Source: Streptomyces sp. NBC_00335 (GTDB lineage: Bacteria > Actinomycetota > Actinomycetes > Streptomycetales > Streptomycetaceae). From it: a DNA stretch of 64,000 bases. The notes under the pieces are model-generated. The model worked only from the letters and a program-made list of their open reading frames with translations. It searched no databases and was not told the origin of the DNA. How positions within the stretch are numbered: the stretch's first letter is position 1; every line of letters begins with the position of its first letter. Position numbers and translations under genes: made by a program. Below are positions 3,152-18,444 of this stretch, piece after piece. Where the stretch lies: positions 6,129,501-6,193,500 of the forward strand of contig NZ_CP108006.1 of assembly GCF_036127095.1 (NCBI RefSeq), written 5' to 3'.

Positions 3152-4753
3152 GTGCCCGCTGCCGACACCATCCTCACCGGAGCCCGCGTCCGCACCCTCG
3201 ACCCCGCCCGCCCCGAGGCCCAGGCGGTGGCCGTCCTCGGCGGCGAGATCGTCGCCGTCGGCGACGAGGCCGACGTCCGCGACTGGCGCGGCCCCGGCAC
3301 CGAAACCGTCGACCTCGGCGGAGCCACCCTCACCCCCGGCCTCACCGACGCCCACAGCCACCCCGTCTGGGGCATCGAGATGGCCGGCGGTACGGACCTC
3401 TCCGCCGTCACCGACCTGGAGCAGCTCCGCGCCGCCCTGCGCACCGCCGAGCGGGGCCCCGGCGGCTGGGTCACCGGCTTCGGCCTCGACCACAACGCCT
3501 TCGGCGGCCGCCCCGTCGACAAGGCCCTGATCGAGGAGGCCCTCGCCGGCGCCCCCGCCTTCCTGCGCCTCTACGACGCCCACTCCGCCCTCGTCTCCGG
3601 TGCGGCCCTGGCCGCCGCCGGCATCACGGGCCCGCGCTCCTTCGCCCAGCGCTCCGAGATCGTCTGCGACACCGACGGGCGCCCCACCGGCCACCTCGTC
3701 GAGCACGCCGCGATGGACCTGGTCGGCGCCCTCGTGCCGAAGCTCACGTCCGCCGAGCGCCGCGAGCGCCTCACCCGGCTGCTCGCCGACATGGCCACCA
3801 CCGGCCTGACCGCCGCCCACGTGATGGACCTCGGCGACGGAGACGTACCGGCCCTGCTCGCGACGGCGGAGTACGAGGGCGACCTGGCGCTGCGCCTGAA
3901 CCTGTCGCCCTGGTGCATGCCGGGCGTCGGCGCGGACGACCTGGACGAGCTGATCGGGCTCCAGCGGCTCGCCGGCCGCCACTGGAAGATCGGCGGGGTG
4001 AAGTTCTTCATGGACGGCACCGTCGAGGGCGGCACCGCCTGGCTGGAGCACGCCGACTGCCACGGCCAGGGCACCGAAGCCTTCTGGCCCGACCCGCAGG
4101 CGTACAGCGAGGCGGTACGGGTCCTCGACGCGGCCGGGGTGCGCACCGCGACCCACGCCATCGGCGACGCCGCCGTCCGCCACGTCCTGGACACCGTGGC
4201 CTCGCTGGGCGGGCGGGGGCGCATGCGGCACCGGATCGAGCACATCGAGACGGTCCCGGACGGCCAGCTGAAGCGGTTCGCGGAACTCGGCGTGATCGCC
4301 TCCATGCAGCCGCCGCACACCTCGTGCACCCGGGCCGACCACAGCGACGAGTGGTCCACGCGGCTGGGGGAGGAGCGGGCCGGCCACGCCTGGCGCTGCC
4401 GGGACCTGCGCGAGGCCGGCGCGGTGCTCGCCCTCGGCTCGGACTGGCCCGTCGCGCACTACGACGCCCGCCAGGTACTGGCGGACGCCCGCAGCCCGCA
4501 CGGCGCGGCCTCGGCCGGTACGGGGGCCTGGACCGGGGCGGCCCTGACCGGGCTGATGGCCCTGGAGGGCATGACCTCGCACGCCGCGCTGGCGGCGGGG
4601 GAGGGAGCGGTGGCGGGCCGGATCGCGGCCGGCTTCCGGGCGGACCTGACCGCCTTCGGCCTGGACCCGGTGGAGGCTCCGGCGGACGAGCTGGCCGGGG
4701 CGCCGGTCCGGCTCACCATGTCGGGAGGCCGGATCACCCACCGGGAGGGGTGA
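3152..4753 (+). CDS. Amidohydrolase family protein (YtcJ-like, Amidohydro_3)
   Basis: A 533-residue metal-dependent hydrolase. The N-terminal beta-sandwich (ILTGARVRTLDPARPEAQAV) is followed by the metal motif TPGLTDAHSHPVWG (HxH, residues about 65-75), a central GVKFFMDGTVEGG segment, THAIGDAAV, RHRIEHIE and a terminal LGSDWPVAHYD aspartate motif. These place it with cytosolic cyclic-amidohydrolase/TIM-barrel enzymes of the YtcJ type, which hydrolyse amide or N-formyl bonds. The GTG start at 3152 has AAGGAGC six bases upstream. It follows the APC permease closely and is probably co-transcribed with it, under the divergent TetR. The substrate cannot be assigned. Confidence 0.86.
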   Translation: MPAADTILTGARVRTLDPARPEAQAVAVLGGEIVAVGDEADVRDWRGPGTETVDLGGATLTPGLTDAHSHPVWGIEMAGGTDLSAVTDLEQLRAALRTAERGPGGWVTGFGLDHNAFGGRPVDKALIEEALAGAPAFLRLYDAHSALVSGAALAAAGITGPRSFAQRSEIVCDTDGRPTGHLVEHAAMDLVGALVPKLTSAERRERLTRLLADMATTGLTAAHVMDLGDGDVPALLATAEYEGDLALRLNLSPWCMPGVGADDLDELIGLQRLAGRHWKIGGVKFFMDGTVEGGTAWLEHADCHGQGTEAFWPDPQAYSEAVRVLDAAGVRTATHAIGDAAVRHVLDTVASLGGRGRMRHRIEHIETVPDGQLKRFAELGVIASMQPPHTSCTRADHSDEWSTRLGEERAGHAWRCRDLREAGAVLALGSDWPVAHYDARQVLADARSPHGAASAGTGAWTGAALTGLMALEGMTSHAALAAGEGAVAGRIAAGFRADLTAFGLDPVEAPADELAGAPVRLTMSGGRITHREG

Positions 4754-4765
4754 GGGGGCCGGGGC

Positions 4766-5671
4766 TCAGCGCCGGAAGCGGCCCAGCGCCGGATGGTTCA
4801 GGACGGCCGCCGCCACCGGGTGGCGGCCGGTCTCCTCGGGCCGGCGCGGCAGCCGGTGCGGGAGGGAGCCGTACCAGGCGCGGGAGACGGTGTAGCCGAA
4901 GGCCAGGCAGAGCATGCCGCCGACGGCGTCGAGCCAGAAGTGGTTGGCGGTGGCCACGATCACGACCAGCGTCGCCGTCGGGTAGAGCAGGCCCAGGATC
5001 CGGGCCCAGGGGGCGGAGGCGACCGCGAAGATCGTCAGCCCGCACCAGAGCGACCACCCTATGTGCATGGAGGGCATGGCGGCGTACTGGTTCGACATGT
5101 GCTTGAGGTTCCCCGAGGCCATGGAGCCCCAGGTGTGGTGGACCAGCACGGTGTCGACGAAGTTCTGCCCGTTCATCAGCCGGGGCGGCGCGAGCGGGTA
5201 GAAGTAGTAGCCGACCAGGGCCACGCCCGTGGTGGCGAAGAGGACGAGCCGCGTCGCCGCGTAACGCCCGGGATGAAAGCGGTAGATCCAGACCAGCACG
5301 CCGATGGTCACGACGAAGTGGAGGGTGGCGTAGTAGTAGTTCATGCCCACCACGAGCCAGGTCACCGCATTGACGGCGTGGTTGACCCTCTCCTCGACGG
5401 CGATGCCGAGCGCCTGCTCCGCCTTCCAGATCCAGTCGGCGTTCGCGAGCGCGGCCGCCTTCTGCTCGGGCACGGCGTTGCGGATCAGCGAGTAGGTCCA
5501 GTAGCTGACCGCGATCAGCAGGACCTCGAACCAGATCCGGGGTCGCCGGGGGACGCGCATCCTGGAGAGCAGTGCACGCTCGGACGACGCCGGGCGGTCA
5601 TGGCTCTCGGTCACGGGGGGTGACGAGACGTCCGTCCGGGTATCCAGTGTCTTCACGCTCGCTTCACCCAT
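4766..5671 (-). CDS. PAP2-superfamily membrane phosphatase/phosphotransferase
   Basis: A 301-residue membrane protein with six predicted transmembrane stretches. The PAP2 signature is split as in the inositol-phosphorylceramide-synthase-like (PAP2_3) branch: MPSMHIGWS (catalytic His after the Ser) near residue 200, and ATANHFWLDAVGG (second catalytic His and Asp) near residue 245. It should dephosphorylate a lipid phosphate or transfer a phospho-headgroup at the membrane. The gene converges with the amidohydrolase, leaving only 12 bases between stops. The ATG at 5671 has no clear ribosome site; the in-frame GTG at 5656 is preceded by GGTGAAG and may be the real start. Confidence 0.82.
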   Translation of the reverse strand: MGEASVKTLDTRTDVSSPPVTESHDRPASSERALLSRMRVPRRPRIWFEVLLIAVSYWTYSLIRNAVPEQKAAALANADWIWKAEQALGIAVEERVNHAVNAVTWLVVGMNYYYATLHFVVTIGVLVWIYRFHPGRYAATRLVLFATTGVALVGYYFYPLAPPRLMNGQNFVDTVLVHHTWGSMASGNLKHMSNQYAAMPSMHIGWSLWCGLTIFAVASAPWARILGLLYPTATLVVIVATANHFWLDAVGGMLCLAFGYTVSRAWYGSLPHRLPRRPEETGRHPVAAAVLNHPALGRFRR

Positions 5672-6867: not shown

Positions 6868-8522
6868 AATGACCACCACGTGCACGAATCCGGGGGAAGC
6901 CGGACGGTGCGGCCGTCCGTCTCCACCGGGGCACTGGACAGGACGGGGCGTCCGGGCGAGGGCATTTCGAGCGGGACCGGGCGTGTGTTGAGCGTGCACG
7001 CGAAGCCGGGGCGGGTGAAGAGCAGCGCCCCCTCGGGCGCGGGCAGCCACTGCATCCCCGGCTCCGCGGCCCCTTCCTGCGCCCCGCCCCCTTCCGCGTC
7101 CGGGAGCCCCGCCTCCGGTGCCCCGAGGCCCGGCATCGCGCGGCGCAGTTCCAGGGCTGCGCGGTAGAGCTCCAGGGTGGAGTGGGGGTCGCCGGTCTGC
7201 GCGGCGACGCTGAGCCCGCCCCAGCCGGCCGGCTGCGGGAGCCAGCTCCCGGCCGGCCCGAAGTCGTACGGGGGCTCCTCGCCGGACCACGGGATCGGCA
7301 CCCGGCAGCCGTCGCGCAGCCCGTCCTGCCCGGCGCTGCGGGTGAAGGCCGGGTCCCGGCGGGCGGAGTCCGGGAGGTCGGTCACCTCGGGGAGGCCGAG
7401 CTCCTCTCCCTGGTAGACGTACGCCGATCCGGGCAGGGCCAGCATCAGCAGCGCGGCCGCCCGCGCCCGGGCCAGGCTGCCGTAGCGGGTGCGGTGCCGT
7501 ACGACGTCGTGGTTGGACAGCACCCAGGTCGTCGGGGCGCCGACCGAGGCGGTGGCGGCGAGGGACTCGTCGATGACGGTCCGCAGTGCGGTGGTGTCCC
7601 AGGGGCAGTTCAGGAAGCGGAAGTTGAAGGCCTGGTGCAGTTCGTCGGGGCGGACGTAGAGCGCGAGCCGCTCGGAGGTGGGCGCCCAGGCCTCGGCGAC
7701 CCCGATGCGCGGGACCTCGTAGGAATCGAGCAGCCGCCGCCAGGAGCGGTGGATCGCGTGGACGCCGTCCTGGTCGAAGAAGGGGAGCGGCTCGATGCCG
7801 ATGAGGGTGGCCTGCGCGCCGCGGCCGATGTCCGGCAGGCCCGGGGCCTTGACCATGCCGTGCGCCACGTCCACCCGGAACCCGTCGACGCCGAGGTCGA
7901 GCCAGAACCGCAGGACGGCGGAGAATTCCTCGGCGACCTCCGGGTTCTCCCAGTTCAGGTCGGGCTGCTCGGGGGCGAAGAGGTGCAGGTACCAGGCGCC
8001 GTCCGGGGTCCGGGTCCAGGCGGGGCCGCCGAAGACCGACTCCCAGTCGTTGGGCGGGAGCTCCCCGGCGGGCCCCCGGCCCGGGTGGAAGTGGTAGCGG
8101 GCCCGGGCTCCCGGCTCCCCGGCCAGCGCCGCCCGGAACCAGACGTGCTGCTCGGAGGTGTGGTTCGGGACCACGTCCACGATGACCCGCAGCCCCAGTG
8201 CGTGTGCGGCGCGGATGAGGTCGTCGGCGTCGGCGAGGTCACCGAAGAGCGGGTCGACGGCCCGGTAGTCGGCGACGTCGTAGCCGCCGTCGGCCTGCGG
8301 GGAGACGTAGAAGGGGGTCAGCCACACCGCGTCGACCCCGAGCCGGGCCAGATGGGGCAGGTGCTCGCGGACCCCGCGCAGGTCCCCGATCCCGTCGCCG
8401 TCGCTGTCGGCGAAGGAGCGGACGTATACCTGATAGATGACGGCATCGCGCCACCAGCCGCCGCTCGCGGTGGCGTTGCTGGAAGCGCTTGCAAGCCGGG
8501 AGGCGGTCAACTCGTGGGTCAT
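6864..8522 (-). CDS. aglA: GH13 alpha-glucosidase AglA-like (copy 1)
   Basis: A 552-residue cytoplasmic GH13 enzyme of the oligo-1,6-/alpha-glucosidase subgroup, without a signal peptide. It opens with WWRDAVIYQVYVRSFADSDGDG. Catalytic positions are visible: nucleophile Asp in DGFRVDVAHG (about residue 213), acid/base Glu in GVAEAWAP (about 276) and the third Asp in LSNHDVVRH (about 335). It would release glucose from imported maltose and maltodextrins. It is divergent from malE and translationally coupled to malR copy 1. Compared with the second copy it has an extra Gly/Ala/Glu-rich insert of roughly 25 residues near residue 480. A LacI-type palindrome falls inside its first codons. Confidence 0.9.
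   Translation of the reverse strand: MTHELTASRLASASSNATASGGWWRDAVIYQVYVRSFADSDGDGIGDLRGVREHLPHLARLGVDAVWLTPFYVSPQADGGYDVADYRAVDPLFGDLADADDLIRAAHALGLRVIVDVVPNHTSEQHVWFRAALAGEPGARARYHFHPGRGPAGELPPNDWESVFGGPAWTRTPDGAWYLHLFAPEQPDLNWENPEVAEEFSAVLRFWLDLGVDGFRVDVAHGMVKAPGLPDIGRGAQATLIGIEPLPFFDQDGVHAIHRSWRRLLDSYEVPRIGVAEAWAPTSERLALYVRPDELHQAFNFRFLNCPWDTTALRTVIDESLAATASVGAPTTWVLSNHDVVRHRTRYGSLARARAAALLMLALPGSAYVYQGEELGLPEVTDLPDSARRDPAFTRSAGQDGLRDGCRVPIPWSGEEPPYDFGPAGSWLPQPAGWGGLSVAAQTGDPHSTLELYRAALELRRAMPGLGAPEAGLPDAEGGGAQEGAAEPGMQWLPAPEGALLFTRPGFACTLNTRPVPLEMPSPGRPVLSSAPVETDGRTVRLPPDSCTWWSL
8481..8496. promoter_or_regulatory. LacI-type palindrome inside the aglA copy 1 N-terminus
   Basis: GGAAGCGCTTGCAAGC contains the LacI-family core AAGCGCTT and a perfect GCTTGCAAGC palindrome (8487-8496). 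It lies within codons 9-14 of the minus-strand alpha-glucosidase. It shares the CTTGC/GCAAG half-site with the malE and amylase upstream sites. MalR binding is inferred. Confidence 0.5.
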
Positions 8523-12047: not shown

Positions 12048-13649
12048 ATGACCCAGCACCTCGCCGACGCCTTCCCCACCTCCACCGGCACCCAGCCCGG
12101 CTGGTGGAGAGAAGCGGTGATCTACCAGGTCTATCCGCGCAGCTTCGCCGACTCCAACGGAGACGGCATGGGGGACCTCGAAGGCATCCGCAGCCGACTG
12201 CCCTACCTCAAGGAACTCGGCGTCGACGCCGTGTGGCTCAGCCCCTTCTACGCCTCCCCGCAGGCCGACGCGGGCTACGACGTCGCCGACTACCGGGCCA
12301 TCGACCCGATGTTCGGCAGCCTCCACGACGCCGACGCCGTCATCCGCGAAGCCCACGCGCTGGACCTGCGGATCATCGTGGACCTGGTCCCCAACCACTG
12401 CTCCGACCAGCACGAATGGTTCAAGCAGGCGCTGCGCGAGGGCCCGGGGTCCCCGCTGCGCGAACGCTTCCACTTCCGCGCGGGCCAGGGCGACGGCGGC
12501 GCCCTGCCCCCCAACGACTGGGAGTCCATCTTCGGCGGGCCCGCCTGGACCCGAGTCGCCGACGGGGAGTGGTACCTGCACCTCTTCGCCCCCGAGCAGC
12601 CCGACTTCAACTGGGAACACCCCGCCGTCCAGGACGAGTTCCGCTCGATCCTGCGCTTCTGGCTCGACCTCGGCGCCGACGGCTTCCGCATCGACGTGGC
12701 CCACGGCCTGGTCAAGGCTCCCGGCCTGCCCGACCTCGGCCGCGGCGAACAGCTCAAGCTGCTCGGCAACCAGGTGCTGCCCTTCTTCGACCAAGACGGC
12801 GTCCACGAGATCTACCGCTCCTGGCGCCGGGTCCTCGACGAGTACGCCGGCGACCGCATCGGCGTGGCCGAGGCCTGGACGCCGAGCGCCGACCGGACGG
12901 CCATGTACCTGCGGCCCGACGAACTGCACCAGGCCTTCAACTTCCACTACCTGAACACCGGATGGGACGCGAAGGCGCTGCGCGCCACCATCGACGAGTC
13001 CCTGGACGCGATGCGCCCGGTGGGCGCGCCGACGACGTGGGTGCTGTCGAACCACGACGTCGTACGCCACGTCACGCGCTACGGCGGCGGGGCCGAGGGC
13101 CTGGCCCGGGCGCGGGCGGCCGCGCTGCTGATGCTGGCCCTGCCCGGTTCCGCGTACGTCTACCAGGGCGAGGAGCTCGGCCTGCCGGAGGTGCTGGACC
13201 TGCCGGACGGGGTGCGGCAGGACCCGGCCTTCGCCCGCGGCGCCGGGCAGGACGGGCTGCGCGACGGCTGCCGCGTACCGATCCCGTGGTCGGGCACCGA
13301 GGCCCCGTACGGCTTCGGCGAGGGCGGCAGCTGGCTGCCGCAGCCGGCCGAGTGGGCGGGCCTGAGCGTGGCCGCGCAGACCGGCGACCCCCACTCCACC
13401 CTGGAGCTCTACCGCGCCGCGCTGCGCCTGCGCCGTTCGCACCCGGAGCTGGGGGCCGGCGACGCGGTGGAGTGGCTCCAGGCTCCGGCCGGCGTCCTGG
13501 CCTTCCGCCGGGGGGACTTCACCTGCACGGTCAACACCACGGCCGAGCCGGTACGGATGCCCGCGCCGGGCACCGTACTGCTGGCGAGCGGGCCCCTGCC
13601 CGACCCGTCGGAGCTGCCGGCCGACACGGCGGTGTGGTGGCGGGGATGA
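12048..13649 (+). CDS. GH13 alpha-glucosidase AglA-like (copy 2)
   Basis: A 533-residue cytoplasmic GH13 alpha-glucosidase closely related to the copy at 6864-8522. The same order of motifs is seen: WWREAVIYQVYPRSFADSNG at the N-terminus, nucleophile region DGFRIDVAHG (about residue 211), acid/base GVAEAWTP (about 273) and LSNHDVVRH (about 333). The ATG at 12048 has AAGGACG upstream. It lies downstream of malG and its TGA overlaps the ATG of the next regulator gene (ATGA). Downstream-of-malG placement corresponds to the aglA position I recall from S. coelicolor; the flanking mirror copy suggests duplication. It hydrolyses imported maltodextrins to glucose. Confidence 0.9.
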   Translation: MTQHLADAFPTSTGTQPGWWREAVIYQVYPRSFADSNGDGMGDLEGIRSRLPYLKELGVDAVWLSPFYASPQADAGYDVADYRAIDPMFGSLHDADAVIREAHALDLRIIVDLVPNHCSDQHEWFKQALREGPGSPLRERFHFRAGQGDGGALPPNDWESIFGGPAWTRVADGEWYLHLFAPEQPDFNWEHPAVQDEFRSILRFWLDLGADGFRIDVAHGLVKAPGLPDLGRGEQLKLLGNQVLPFFDQDGVHEIYRSWRRVLDEYAGDRIGVAEAWTPSADRTAMYLRPDELHQAFNFHYLNTGWDAKALRATIDESLDAMRPVGAPTTWVLSNHDVVRHVTRYGGGAEGLARARAAALLMLALPGSAYVYQGEELGLPEVLDLPDGVRQDPAFARGAGQDGLRDGCRVPIPWSGTEAPYGFGEGGSWLPQPAEWAGLSVAAQTGDPHSTLELYRAALRLRRSHPELGAGDAVEWLQAPAGVLAFRRGDFTCTVNTTAEPVRMPAPGTVLLASGPLPDPSELPADTAVWWRG

Positions 13650-14653
13650 CCTCCCCGCTGCGGCTGACGGACATCGCCGCGCAGGCCGCGGTCAGCGAGG
13701 CGACCGTCAGCCGCGTGCTCAACGGCAAGGCGGGCGTGGCGTCCGGCACCCGGCACAAGGTGCTGGCCGCCATGGACCTGCTGGGCTACGAACGCCCGGT
13801 CCGGCTGCGCCGGCGCAGCAACGGGCTGGTGGGCCTGCTGACCCCGGAGCTCACCAACCCGATCTTCCCGGCGTTCGCCCAGGTCATCGAGCAGACCCTG
13901 GCGGGCCACGGCTACACCCCGGTGCTGTGCACGCAGACCCCTGGGGGAGCCACCGAGGACGAACTGGTGGAGCAGCTGGAGGAACGCGGGGTCACCGGCA
14001 TCGTGTTCCTGTCCGGGCTGCACGCGGACTCCTCGGCGGACCCTTCGCGCTACCAGCGGCTGGCGGCGCGGGGGGTCCCGTTCGTGCTGATCAACGGCTT
14101 CAACGAGCAGGTCCAGGCCCCCTTCATCTCCCCGGACGACCGCGCGGCGGCGGAGATGGCGGTCCGCCACCTGGAGGACCTGGGCCACCGCAGGATCGGC
14201 CTGGCCATCGGCCCTACGCGGTACGTGCCGTCGGCGCGGAAGGAAGCGGGTTTCATCGCCGCCCTCCCGTCGGCTGCGGCCGAAGGCCTGATCCAGCGCA
14301 CCCTGTTCACGGTCGAGGGCGGCCACGCGGCGGGCGGAGCCCTACTGGACCGGGGCTGCACGGGCATCGTCTGCGGCAGCGACCCGATGGCCCTGGGCGT
14401 CATACGAGCGGCCCGCGAGCGGGGGCTGCGCGTCCCGGAGGACATCTCGGTCGTCGGCTTCGACGACTCCCCGCTGATCGCCTTCACGGACCCCCCGCTG
14501 ACGACGGTCCGCCAACCGGTCCGCGCCATGGCCACGGCAGCGGTGGGCGCCCTCCTGGAGGCGGTCGCCGGCACCCCGGTCCAGCGGACCGAGTACGTGT
14601 TCCAGCCGGAGCTGGTGGTCCGGGGGTCCACCGGGCAGGGGCCGGGGGAGTAG
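13646..14653 (+). CDS. LacI-family regulator, MalR paralogue (copy 2)
   Basis: A 335-residue LacI/GalR repressor whose HTH (LRLTDIAAQAAVSEATVSRV) shares the recognition-helix segment with the other MalR in this window. The effector domain also aligns throughout (VLINGFNEQVQAPFISPDDR against VLINGFSDKVQAPFVSPDDR) but is a few residues shorter around residue 200. It is translationally coupled to the alpha-glucosidase copy 2 by an ATGA overlap. Because the recognition helices match, both repressors probably compete for or share operators, while effector preference may differ. It is the last gene before the inverted-repeat region, and no clear terminator separates them. Confidence 0.87.
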   Translation: MTSPLRLTDIAAQAAVSEATVSRVLNGKAGVASGTRHKVLAAMDLLGYERPVRLRRRSNGLVGLLTPELTNPIFPAFAQVIEQTLAGHGYTPVLCTQTPGGATEDELVEQLEERGVTGIVFLSGLHADSSADPSRYQRLAARGVPFVLINGFNEQVQAPFISPDDRAAAEMAVRHLEDLGHRRIGLAIGPTRYVPSARKEAGFIAALPSAAAEGLIQRTLFTVEGGHAAGGALLDRGCTGIVCGSDPMALGVIRAARERGLRVPEDISVVGFDDSPLIAFTDPPLTTVRQPVRAMATAAVGALLEAVAGTPVQRTEYVFQPELVVRGSTGQGPGE

Positions 14654-14701
14654 GGGAGGGGGGCTTGTGCTGCGGGTCGGTTGGGCTGCGGGCTGGGCGG
14701 T

Positions 14702-15155
14702 GGCTGCGTGGGGTTCCGGGGGGCGTCCCGGCAGTCCAGTGTCCTTTCGGTGTGGGCCGGTCCCTCAAGGGCGCTCCCTGCGGTCGCGTCGCTTCGCGAT
14801 GGCCTTCGGCCACCCTTGACCGACCGACCCACACCGAAACGCCACAAGACTTCCGGGATCCCCCCGGGGAATGGCCGGGGGAGGACCTTGGGAGGGGCGG
14901 CCTCGTCTGAGTTGCGCAGCCCCCTTTGGTCGGTGGGCATCTGTGCACGGATCCGGCAGGACCGTGAGCTCAGCCGGTACGGAGGCGCGGGGCGATCGGA
15001 GCATCCAGGGCCGGGCGTCTGGACACCCTTCCCGTGACCGTCGACCGCCACCCCGAGCGCAAGGACGCTCACAAGCCCCTCAGGGCCGGTGGGCGCGACA
15101 GATCGCTACGTACTCTCGCTCGGCTTAGCGACTAACGACCGTCTGTGGCTGATCT
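14702..15155 (-). repeat. Long inverted repeat, left copy (about 454 bp)
   Basis: The reverse complement of this stretch aligns end to end with 16062-16514. Long runs are identical: the outer end over 30 bases from AGATCAGCCACAGACGG, a GGTGGCGGTCGACGGTCACG block, and the hairpin core with GAAGGCCATCGCGAAGCG. Small substitutions are scattered elsewhere. No open reading frame with Streptomyces-like coding character is seen in it. It contains an internal imperfect hairpin (14745-14839). With the right copy it brackets the aminotransferase gene. Confidence 0.85.
14745..14839. repeat. Hairpin within the left inverted repeat
   Basis: Arms beginning TTTCGGTGTGGG and ending CCCACACCGAAA pair across a roughly 41-base loop, with several mismatches in the middle of the stem. 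The loop is the same as in the right copy and contains TGGCCGAAGGCCA and TCGCGAAGCGA mini-hairpins (seen on the minus strand). Confidence 0.75.
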
Positions 15156-15207
15156 GGAGAAGGTTCGAGGTCCGGGCGGACGAGGTGGTTGTGACAGCAT
15201 TGCGCGA

Positions 15208-15996
15208 GTGCTGAGCATAGAGATCAACGGTCTGCCCGCAGAGGTTGAGGACGTGCACCGGGTCGCGACGTGGAACTACGGGCACTTCACGTCGATGCAG
15301 GTCCGCGAGGGGGCGGTGCCGGGGCTGGAGCTCCACCTCCGACGGCTGGCCGGTGCCTCTCTGGAGCTCTTCGGCGAGGCGGCCGAGCAGGACGACGTCC
15401 GGATCCGCGCACTCATCCGGCACGGGCTCGGCGACCGGTCTGATGCGTCGGTGCGGGTGAGTGTCGTTCCCGCCGTCGGCTCAGCGGGTCGTACGGACGT
15501 CATGGTGTCGGTCTCGGACGCCGTGGCCGACAGCCCACGGCCGGCACTGCGCGTTCGCACGGCGACGTATGAGCGCGACCTGCCGCACCTCAAGCACGTG
15601 GCGACGATGGGGCTCACCTACGGGAGGCTCCAGGCCCGCGAGGCGGGTTTCGACGATGTCCTGTTCGTCGGCCGGGACGGGTTCGTCCGCGAGGGCTCGG
15701 TGTGGAACGCGTCGTTCTGGGACGGGGAGCAGGTGCTGTGGCCCGAGGCCCCCGTGCTGCCCGGCATCACCATGCAGCTGCTCCAGGCCGGCCTGACCCG
15801 TATCGGTGCCATGTGGTCGACCCGTCGGCTGACAGTCGACGACTTTCCGGCACTTCGAGCCGCCGCAGCGAACAACTCTCATTGCCCCAGCCAGCCTCTG
15901 GCCTCCATCGACCAATTCGTCTTCTCCGACGAGGGTTCGGTCCTGACCGATGTCCTCAACAGGGCCTGGGCCTCGGTCCCCTGGGACGTCATCTGA
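15208..15996 (+). CDS. Class IV aminotransferase family protein
   Basis: A 262-residue protein of the PLP fold-type IV family (branched-chain/D-amino acid aminotransferases and 4-amino-4-deoxychorismate lyases). The expected PLP lysine lies in RDLPHLKHVATM (about residue 132). The family's phosphate-binding segment appears as VLPGITMQLL, after GFVREGSVWNASFW (the usual E-G-S-x-x-N motif). The GTG at 15208 was chosen at the first conserved strand; upstream in-frame codons lie in the repeat. It stands alone between two inverted repeats, and codons such as ATA, TCT and GCA are more common than in neighbours. An accessory, possibly acquired gene is inferred. Substrate unknown. Confidence 0.82.
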   Translation: MLSIEINGLPAEVEDVHRVATWNYGHFTSMQVREGAVPGLELHLRRLAGASLELFGEAAEQDDVRIRALIRHGLGDRSDASVRVSVVPAVGSAGRTDVMVSVSDAVADSPRPALRVRTATYERDLPHLKHVATMGLTYGRLQAREAGFDDVLFVGRDGFVREGSVWNASFWDGEQVLWPEAPVLPGITMQLLQAGLTRIGAMWSTRRLTVDDFPALRAAAANNSHCPSQPLASIDQFVFSDEGSVLTDVLNRAWASVPWDVI

Positions 15997-16061
15997 CAGC
16001 CGTATCGTCGTCCCCACGTCGTCAGACCGACCACCACAGCCAAGTACCCATGCCCCCGTCT

Positions 16062-16514
16062 AGATCAGCCACAGACGGTCGTTAGTCGCTAAGCTGAGTG
16101 GGACTGTGTAGCGATCTGTCGCGCCCACCGCCCCTGAGGTCCTTCTCGTCCACCTTGCGCTCTGGGTGGCGGTCGACGGTCACGGGAAGGGTGCCCAGAC
16201 GCCCGGCCCTGGATGCCCGCATCGCCCCGCGCGTCCGTACCGGCTGAGGTCACGGTCCTGCCGGATCGGTGTCCAGATGCCCTCCGGCCGGAGGGGGCTG
16301 CGCATCTCAGACGAGGCCGCCCCTCCCCTCTCCTCCCCCCGGCCATTCCCCGGGGGGATCCCGGAAGTCTTGTGTTTTTCCGTGGTGGGACGGTCCGTCA
16401 AGGGTGGCCGAAGGCCATCGCGAAGCGACGCGACCGCAGGGAGCGCCCTTGACGGACCGTCCCACCACGGAAGGACGCTCGACTGCCGGGACGCCGCCCG
16501 GCACCCACGCAGCC
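16062..16514 (+). repeat. Long inverted repeat, right copy (about 453 bp)
   Basis: Inverted partner of 14702-15155, of nearly equal length (453 against 454). It starts with AGATCAGCCACAGACGGTCG 65 bases after the aminotransferase stop and ends with CACGCAGCC. Its perfect internal hairpin is at 16378-16472. It separates the aminotransferase from the amylase promoter and has no coding signal. Confidence 0.85.
16378..16472. repeat. Perfect 27-bp stem hairpin within the right inverted repeat
   Basis: TTCCGTGGTGGGACGG... (16378-16404) pairs perfectly with ...CCGTCCCACCACGGAA (16446-16472), leaving a 41-base loop. The loop itself holds TGGCCGAAGGCCA and TCGCGAAGCGA, both with GAA triloops. The stem differs in sequence from the left copy while pairing is kept, which suggests selection on structure rather than sequence. 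Confidence 0.8.
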
Positions 16515-16572
16515 AAGGACCGGCCCGCAGCCCAACCCACCCCCCACCCCCCGACCCCACCCGGAAACAATT

Positions 16573-16623
16573 CTGCAATCTCTTGCGCAAGGTCTTGCAG
16601 CGCCCCCGTCCGGCACCTACGGT
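16573..16623 (+). promoter_or_regulatory. Alpha-amylase promoter and MalR-type operator
   Basis: A CTTGCGCAAG palindrome (16582-16591) sits inside a 28-bp imperfect palindrome from CTGCAA to TTGCAG (16573-16600). TTGCAG (16595-16600), a 17-base spacer and TACGGT (16618-16623) form a plausible vegetative promoter whose -35 overlaps the operator. CTTGC/GCAAG half-sites match those before malE. Regulation by a MalR protein is inferred. Confidence 0.6.
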
Positions 16624-16695
16624 CGCTGCAATCCCCAACTCGGCCGTGACCGGTCCCCACCCGGTCCTGCGCCTCTCCGCCAGGAGGAACACCCC

Positions 16696-18444
16696 ATGCC
16701 CACCCGTGCCCGCGCCGCCAGAGCCGCCGCCGCGCTGCTCTCCGTATCCGCCGTCACCGCCGTGACCGCCCTCGCCCTCGTCGGGGGGTCCGCTCCCCAG
16801 GCCATGGCCGCCGCCCCGGGTGAGAAGGACGTCACCGCCGTCATGTTCGAGTGGCGGTTCGACTCCGTGGGGAAGGCCTGCTCGCAGAGCCTCGGGCCCG
16901 CCGGGTACGGCTACGTCCAGGTGTCGCCCCCTCAGGAGCACATCCAGGGGGCCCAGTGGTGGACCTCGTACCAGCCCGTCAGTTACAAGATCGCCGGACG
17001 GCTCGGCGACCGGACCGCCTTCAAGGCCATGGTCGACGCCTGTCACGCCGCCGGTGTGAAGGTCGTCGCCGACTCCGTCATCAACCACATGGCGGCCGGC
17101 GACGGCACCGGAACGGGCGGGAGTTCGTACACGAAGTACAACTACCCGGGCATCTACTCCGGCGCCGACATGGACGACTGCCGGTCCTCGATATCGAACT
17201 ACCAGGACCGCGGGAACGTCCAGAACTGCGAGCTCGTCCAGCTCGCCGACCTGGACACCGGCGAGGACTACGTGCGCGGGCGGATCGCCGGCTACCTCAA
17301 CGACCTGCTCTCCCTCGGTGTCGACGGCTTCCGCATCGACGCCGCCAAGCACATGCCCGCCGCCGACCTGGCCAACATCAAGTCGCGGATGACGAACCCG
17401 AACGCCTACTGGAAGCAGGAGGCGATCCACGGCGCCGGCGAGGCCGTCTCGCCCTCCGAGTACCTCGGCAGCGGAGACGTGCAGGAGTTCCGCTACGCGC
17501 GGGACCTCAAGCGGGTCTTCCAGAACGAGAACCTCGCCAACCTGAAGAACTTCGGGGAGGCCTGGGGGTACATGTCCTCCGGGCAGTCCGCCGTCTTCGT
17601 CGACAACCACGACACCGAGCGCGGCGGTGACACCCTCAGCTACAAGAACGGGTCCGCCTACACGCTCGCCAACGTCTTCATGCTCGCCTGGCCCTACGGC
17701 TCCCCGGACGTGCACTCCGGCTACGAGTGGACCGACCGCGACGCCGGCCCGCCCAACGGCGGCACCGTGAACGCCTGTTACACCGACGGGTGGAAGTGCC
17801 AGCACGCCTGGCAGGAGATCTCCTCCATGGTCGGCTTCCGCAACTCCGCGCGCGGCCAGGCCGTCACGGACTGGTGGGACAACGGCGGCGACCAGGTCGC
17901 CTTCGGGCGCGGTGCCAAGGCCTACGTGGCGATCAACCACGAGGGCTCGGCGCTGACCCGGACCTTCCAGACCTCCCTCGCGGGCGGCGACTACTGCGAC
18001 GTGCAGAGCGGCCGCACCGTGACCGTGGACTCCTCCGGGCGGTTCACCGCCACCCTCGGGGCCGGGACGGCCGTCGCCCTGCACGTGGGTGCCCGCAGCT
18101 GCGGCAGCGGCACGCCGAGCCCGACGCCGACCCCCACCACGACCCCCGCCACCGCCGGTGCCTCCTTCGCCGTCAACGCCACCACCGTCATCGGCCAGAA
18201 CATCTACGTCACCGGTGACCGCGCCGAGCTCGGCAGCTGGAACACCGGCGCCGCGCTCAAGCTCGACCCGGCCGCCTATCCCGTCTGGAAGCTCGACGTC
18301 ACGCTCCCGCCCGGCACCGTCTTCGCCTACAAGTACGTCCGCAAGGACGCCGCCGGGAACGTCACCTGGGAGAGCGGAGCCAACCGCTCCGCCACGGTCC
18401 CCGCCAACGGCAAGGTCACGCTGACCGACACCTGGCGCAACTGA
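16696..18444 (+). CDS. Secreted alpha-amylase, GH13 with C-terminal CBM20
   Basis: A 582-residue exported enzyme. Residues 1-39 form a signal peptide ending APQAMAA. The GH13 catalytic domain follows, with [11 protein letters not shown] (nucleophile Asp, about residue 212), FGEAWGY (acid/base Glu, about 287) and [11 protein letters not shown] (third Asp, about 304). After a [12 protein letters not shown] linker (about 472-485) comes a starch-binding CBM20 domain with [20 protein letters not shown]. It cleaves internal alpha-1,4 bonds of starch outside the cell. The ATG at 16696 has AGGAGG nearby. The pullulanase gene follows after 41 bases, presumably in one operon under the upstream CTTGCGCAAG operator. 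Confidence 0.93.

Follow-up and report, generated by a model that had tools for sequence, protein, structure and literature searches.

The window, a stretch of 64,000 nucleotides from Streptomyces sp. NBC_00335, may well hold one copy of a dispersed, non-autonomous, foldback-like family, here termed bracket elements, whose homogenised arms provide a common homology that lets the interior be exchanged or retained; we judge this reading about as probable as its opposite. In the genome of the window (G000, 9.0 Mb) and its relatives, the arms form a repeat family, pair facing outward, cluster by genome and recombine with one another. The contents between them turn over, and at one site they bracket a resident gene.

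The first-pass annotation had described a long inverted repeat around exactly one gene, and the repeat is real. The arms are 88% identical and enclose a class IV aminotransferase gene (Table 1). The exact alignment that the annotation called for pairs 485 with 484 nt at 87.9% identity (blastn). The repeat search finds 448 nt of 88% complementarity (14711-15158 and 16059-16506) and an outer extension, a 39-nt pair of 87% (14674-14712 and 16504-16542); the longest exact run common to both arms is 56 bp. A chance origin is excluded because the arm matches ten other places of the genome, nearly at full length, with E values of 1.7e-161 or better. The longest aminotransferase ORF (15145-15996) opens inside the end of the left arm, and the GTG at 15208 is the likely start. 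The ORF matches Pfam Aminotran_4 (E=4e-24) and the NCBIfam subfamily PRK09266 (E=9e-80). Its slightly different codon use holds, since third-position GC is 0.86 compared to 0.95 and 0.96 in the neighboring genes and 0.95 in the upstream coding stretch. The placement of the block between a regulator and an amylase is likewise borne out by Pfam.

Table 1. Features of the window locus (window coordinates) and arm sites in the genome of the window (Mb).
Feature	Position	Strand	Description or contents	Basis
Left flanking gene	13649..14653	+	LacI-family regulator (named maltose regulator in the first-pass annotation)	Pfam LacI / Peripla_BP_3
Left arm	14674..15158	+	type 1 head outward, inner tail towards gene	repeat search, blastn, arm alignments
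Left head	14716..14868	+	150-base foldback, three small hairpins at tip	repeat search and folding
Left inner tail	15088..15158	+	conserved motif AGATCGCTAC...CTCGGCTTAGCGAC, end GTGGCTGATCTGGA	arm alignments
Bracketed gene	15208..15996	+	class IV aminotransferase (PRK09266 subfamily)	ORF list, Pfam, NCBIfam
Right arm	16059..16542	-	type 2 head outward	repeat search, blastn, arm alignments
Right inner tail	16059..16129	-		arm alignments
Right head	16349..16501	-	foldback, halves 16349-16404 / 16446-16501	repeat search
Right flanking gene	16696..18444	+	alpha-amylase with starch-binding domain	ORF list, Pfam
Site A	2.55 Mb		encloses protein without Pfam match; flanks GNAT and mycothiol-S-transferase	Pfam (flanks)
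Site B	3.93 Mb		encloses weak GH88-like protein; flanks acyl-CoA dehydrogenase and MFS	Pfam (flanks)
Site C	4.88 Mb		encloses two GNATs, ORF without Pfam match, DUF6069 protein; one flank LysE	Pfam (flank)
Site D (window)	6.14 Mb		encloses aminotransferase; flanks LacI-family regulator and alpha-amylase	
Site E	7.07 Mb		encloses glyoxalase-like protein; flanks rsmB and rpe	Pfam (flanks)
Site F	4.85 Mb		single arm, GNAT beside; one flank P450	Pfam (flank)

An invertible switch, in which recombination between the arms flips the aminotransferase gene on or off, had been suggested. The 88% identical, 485-base arms with their 56-base exact run could pair, but the block contains no recombinase ORF, and the same bracketed gene keeps one orientation at site B, with and without arms (17 of 17 genomes with a homologue), and at site E in two species (G000 and Streptomyces sp. 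AP-93). Phase switching was rejected, as no second orientation occurs at these testable sites, and we regard it as barely credible.

Beyond the view of the first-pass annotation, each arm carries its own 150-base foldback. An arm measures ~450 bases in all and comprises a ~150-base foldback head facing outward, a nearly genome-specific middle, and an inner tail with a conserved motif, which ends near GTGGCTGATCTAGA in 7 of the 11 G000 arms (alignment). The left window head folds as single-stranded DNA at -58.8 kcal/mol, compared to -32.0 (sd 3.3) for shuffles (z -8.2). Across 29 distinct heads, drawn from 39 matched and 55 anchored heads among 74 arm pieces, head-stem pairing reaches 0.983 and exceeds all 500 column shuffles (maximum, 0.968). 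Such very stable, well-paired heads would suit static regulatory brackets, with heads acting as bidirectional terminators, paired arms insulating the gene or clamping its mRNA, and pairing kept by selection; several arms, judged by eye, also start within tens of bases of a stop codon. Head pairs changed on both sides, however, number 6 and show no excess over shuffles (mean, 4.4; maximum, 6), some brackets enclose no gene-like ORF, and contents and presence vary between close species, which makes a static role quite improbable. A known structured RNA family was rejected, as both Rfam matches in window positions 14300-17000 score well short of the gathering threshold. Many arms are bordered on the outside by G-rich runs, with a C-rich mirror at the other end; examples are window positions 14654-14673 and 16543-16560 and positions 7110-7190 of region L021. 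At site E of AP-93, an IS110-family element (Pfam DEDD_Tnp_IS110, NCBIfam IS110; positions 3743-5108 of region L205) lies inside the head of the right arm and splits that arm at arm position 147.

Of the 11 near full-length arms of G000, ten form five inverted pairs, each around a different gene set, and one stands alone. The window arm, searched against 100 genomes including G000 with the best 6 candidates per genome scored (up to 40 in later arm searches), finds matches at an E value of 1e-3 or better in 26, many of them in the head only. An arm of G054 matches at least 9 of 12 further genomes among the matches listed. The relatives include Streptomyces sp. AP-93 (G295), TBY4 (G316), H27-H1, CB00455, and S. 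roseus ATCC 31245. The same arms are present around other genes in the genome itself and in related genomes, the latter being what the first-pass annotation had proposed to look for. The cores of three pairs in G006, ~670 bases each, are similar to one another and include internal repeats, and the window arm matches this genome in the head only. A head piece of ~37 to 56 bases occurs in other actinobacterial families (G085, G091, and G092) and in a plasmid of Candidatus Mycobacterium methanotrophicum; the head hairpin is therefore wider spread than the arms. A phage origin was rejected, with no match in phage records and no viral contig containing the inner motif, as was a plasmid origin, with nothing longer than a head in three plasmid records.

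Among the matches listed, all 45 close arm pairs in nine genomes face outward and none inward or in tandem (G000, 5; G121, 7; G054, 6; G237, 8; G172, 6; G038, 7; G307, 3; G012, 2; G265, 1), a close pair being neighboring arm matches of at least 100 bits with starts less than 3.6 kb apart; the chance of outward facing is 1/4 per pair. The count leaves aside AP-93, TBY4, G247, G046, G039, G042, G041, and G004 (drafts or few candidates scored) as well as G006 and G263 (head-sized matches only). Two independent arm insertions, for which either orientation is expected, are ruled out by this uniform facing. The same nine genomes contain at least 26 single arms at the cutoff used. According to the first-pass annotation, fixed orientation together with solo arms would speak against a cassette or a switch. 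The outcome is mixed: orientation is indeed kept where it can be tested, and some arms stand alone, but it is common for paired arms to surround different genes.

Self-comparison of 47 regions adds further pairs, seven of them with cores of 224 to 287 bases. Some cores are short and without a gene-like ORF; others contain one to four ordinary genes. Gene-bearing cores in relatives encode MarR with a weak polyketide-cyclase-like protein, aldo/keto reductase with TetR, a SnoaL-like protein, DUF3089, a glycosyltransferase, or GNAT with a methyltransferase. Gene-bearing brackets can be outnumbered outside G000, with 2 of 6 in G054 (core lengths among the matches listed). Gene-free units with similar cores recur in G054 (three places) and in G121 (four). 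As had been claimed for the block in the window, no transposase occurs among the genes enclosed by G000 arms, nor was one seen in the cores examined in G000 and relatives (Pfam on 20 of the other cores' ORFs).

Trans-mobilised cassettes are a serious rival, although one we consider somewhat unlikely. Here, the arms would form the long termini of a non-autonomous transposon, arms and gene would jump together via a transposase encoded elsewhere, and armless gene copies would result from arm decay. Inverted repeats at both ends with no transposase inside match the MIC or TIME type of element, and the 45 outward pairs and the recurring gene-free units fit as well. So does the make-up of the pairs, which usually have one head of each of two types (read from alignments: 4 of 5 in G000 and, among the rows listed, 5 of 7 in G121). 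The lack of a transposase in the cores examined stands against it, and at the armless sites B and E no target-site duplication is definable by eye, the flanks being too diverged and G-rich.

The relationships of the arms bear on the same question. A tree was built from 46 of the 74 arm pieces (at least 290 bases, without CB00455, G038, and one duplicate). On this tree, genome labels need 8 changes (minimum, 7), compared to a shuffled mean of 27.3, with the arms of G000, TBY4, AP-93, and H27-H1 needing two changes each. The 15 G121 arms and the 6 G046 arms form clades (100/100 and 100/99), although the brackets share sites, and arms from a common site do not fall together. One AP-93 arm from site D falls among the type 2 arms of G000, a tentative placement. 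Orthologous-site arms are found in several species, each with its own arm sequence, a point against the transposon. Incompatible column pairs amount to 0.671 in G000, 0.525 in G121, and 0.284 in G046, and they are rarer among neighboring columns than in any of 2000 shuffles in all three. Judged from these alignments, the arms recombine with one another within G000, G121, and G046. One site B arm of G000 has the outer end GCGTTGAC, like that of G121, and looks as if it had escaped homogenisation. Alternatively, independent bursts of recent date at preferred sites could underlie the grouping of arms by genome.

Comparison of the same site between species, with flanking genes that differ by 4 to 11% among the matches listed, shows changing contents. 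After rsmB (site E), the arms enclose a glyoxalase-like gene in G000 and AP-93, and GNAT plus a DNA-alkylation-repair-like gene in H27-H1. The G000 bracket lies directly between rsmB and rpe. The arm starts 28 bases (AP-93) and 23 bases (H27-H1) after the same WYL-regulator gene, so this edge is common to the two; on the far side, H27-H1 shows no rpe in the 2.4 kb covered. The rsmB-rpe gap is short in G247 and G046, contains RidA-like and WYL-regulator genes in AP-93 and H27-H1, and has other sequence in G054. Neither the gene nor arms occur at site E in G247 and G046, a point for the transposon.

Downstream of the regulator at site D, 7 of the 10 genomes examined have an arm or arm piece (G000, AP-93, TBY4, G121, G012, G046, and G038). 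The other three, G247, G054, and G039, have no arm beside the regulator and answer the call of the first-pass annotation for strains without the block; G042, whose contig ends there, was left out of the count. The amylase follows beyond the arm in G000, G121, and G046, lies in TBY4 on another contig that begins inside an arm, and does not occur in the stretch covered in AP-93, G012, and G038. In G121, about 270 bases separate a single arm from the amylase, too few for a gene; G046 combines one arm with a DUF2867 gene, and G247 shows another gene together with a 32-base arm-like scrap. In several relatives, only one side of sites D and E is shared.

The four genes of site C in G000 contrast with an empty bracket beside LysE in G046; AP-93 and TBY4 have one or two of the G000 genes and no arms. 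The GNAT that lies beside the single arm of site F in G000 sits between arms close to that flank in TBY4 and between arms at site E in H27-H1, and this bracketing of one gene at two sites in different species is in keeping with bracket exchange and with a transposon alike. Site A speaks for a transposon: the gene occurs without arms in G046, and gene and arms are both absent, leaving a short gap, in G247 and G012 (less than 20 bases between matches) and G121 (156 bases). At this site, AP-93 has ~0.5 kb without an arm match and TBY4 a partial arm. Also in line with a transposon is the bracketed aldo/keto reductase and TetR pair of G054: in nine other genomes of the genus, which were not picked as its closest kin and of which G008 has a contig end near this place, no match to the pair was reported next to the conserved right flank.

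Site B differs. The same two genes, for acyl-CoA dehydrogenase and MFS, flank its gene both where arms are present (G000 and G121) and where they are missing (AP-93, TBY4, G247, and G012). A homologue is present in 17 of 150 genomes of the genus, with both neighbors in 16 (only the MFS gene in G042), and only G000 and G121 have arms. Same neighbors, with arms or not, imply that the arms came to the gene and that nothing was swapped there; by this comparison, the bracketed gene is an ancestral resident, bracketed in place. Such a genus-wide resident tells against a transposon that carries its gene along, and simple cargo delivery at every site is ruled out.

When 14 armless loci were searched with 39 arms, 9 were blank and 5 showed a scrap of 22 to 41 bases (E values of 1e-3 to 5e-7). 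Four scraps lie at the gap or its edge (AP-93 B and C, G121 A, and G247 D), as arm decay would leave them under bracket exchange or transposition, and the fifth (TBY4 B) lies inside a gene. The scraps hint that some arms decayed, and only hint, because the search had no shuffled control and the gaps are GC rich.

Around the aminotransferase homologues of G247, G046, G313, and G012, no arms were found, only matches of 14 to 41 bases with E values near 0.01. The loci share only ~430 to 830 bases, the gene itself, and those of G247, G046, and G313 are at non-syntenic places; the gene therefore changes place without visible arms too. The G012 homologue (C1:8806401-8806832) is a partial match with one internal stop. 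Of the mobile cassette that the first-pass annotation had considered, one part stands, with the same arms around other genes and contents that differ between species; the other does not, as the site B gene is an ancestral resident and relatives have site D arms without the aminotransferase. The description of the arms as a cargo cassette is too simple.

In the bracket-element reading, arms at different loci would exchange sequence by homologous recombination or gene conversion. This exchange would keep the arms alike within a genome and so supply the common homology for replacement of the interior and for moves between brackets, and the interior would be kept when arms decay. The bracket beside the regulator most likely existed before the aminotransferase gene came into it, and new pairs perhaps arise through an enzyme that recognises the foldback heads in trans. 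Site B stands against bracket exchange, as it needs two arms to appear around a resident gene, and no mechanism for this is at hand. The single arms, the few gene-bearing brackets of G054, the one-sided sharing of sites D and E, and comparisons that run between species rather than between strains of one species weigh against it as well. A broader version, which we hold to be unlikely, is an integrase-free cassette exchange in Streptomyces, where gene-converted, hairpin-headed arms would serve as docking brackets scattered over the chromosome, single genes or small operons would be swapped between brackets and species through homologous recombination in the arms, and the gene would stay as its arms decay. 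Streptomyces often gain and lose single genes, for the most part by routes that are unclear; an arm family with changing contents would be a concrete, testable route. Brackets are detectable by one simple search, exchange would be visible in strain comparison, and the foldback heads offer a defined substrate for seeking the enzyme that founds new copies.

A full-text literature search, with most subscription papers outside its scope, returned no description of such gene-bracketing arm elements. Nearest to them are TIMEs, MICs, and foldback elements. TIMEs are short non-autonomous repeat units, two copies of which can flank and mobilise DNA, and they have Tn3-type ends and target duplications. 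Both TIMEs and bracket elements are non-autonomous repeats flanking DNA, but no Tn3-type ends were found here, and no target duplication was definable. The bracket arms further differ in their ~450 bases, their foldback head, and their outward facing in all close pairs counted. MICs carry a passenger gene between inverted repeats, without a transposase, and their short ends match a known insertion sequence. Bracket elements share the passenger gene between inverted repeats and the lack of a transposase; their arms, in contrast to the short, insertion-sequence-matching ends of MICs, are long. To our knowledge, neither a parent element of the bracket arms nor a transposase for bracket elements is known. 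The foldback (FB/Galileo) elements of insects have long inverted repeats, internal subrepeats, and variable middles. Bracket elements resemble them in all three features, but are bacterial and homogenised within each genome. TIMEs are Tn3-derived inverted-repeat miniature elements (PMC4133298) and MICs are mobile insertion cassettes (PMC3913671).

REPs and other palindromic intergenic repeats (PMC4681348 and PMC1525189) are, like the bracket arms, intergenic, hairpin forming, and present in many copies. PMC4681348 treats palindromic transcripts in general. Insertion sequences are reported to target REPs, to which the IS110-family element in one AP-93 arm may be compared. The bracket arms differ from REPs in being much longer, paired, and gene enclosing. 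Integron gene cassettes are single ordinary genes exchanged at common recombination sequences; bracket elements resemble them in holding single ordinary genes and differ in having two long inverted arms instead of one site.
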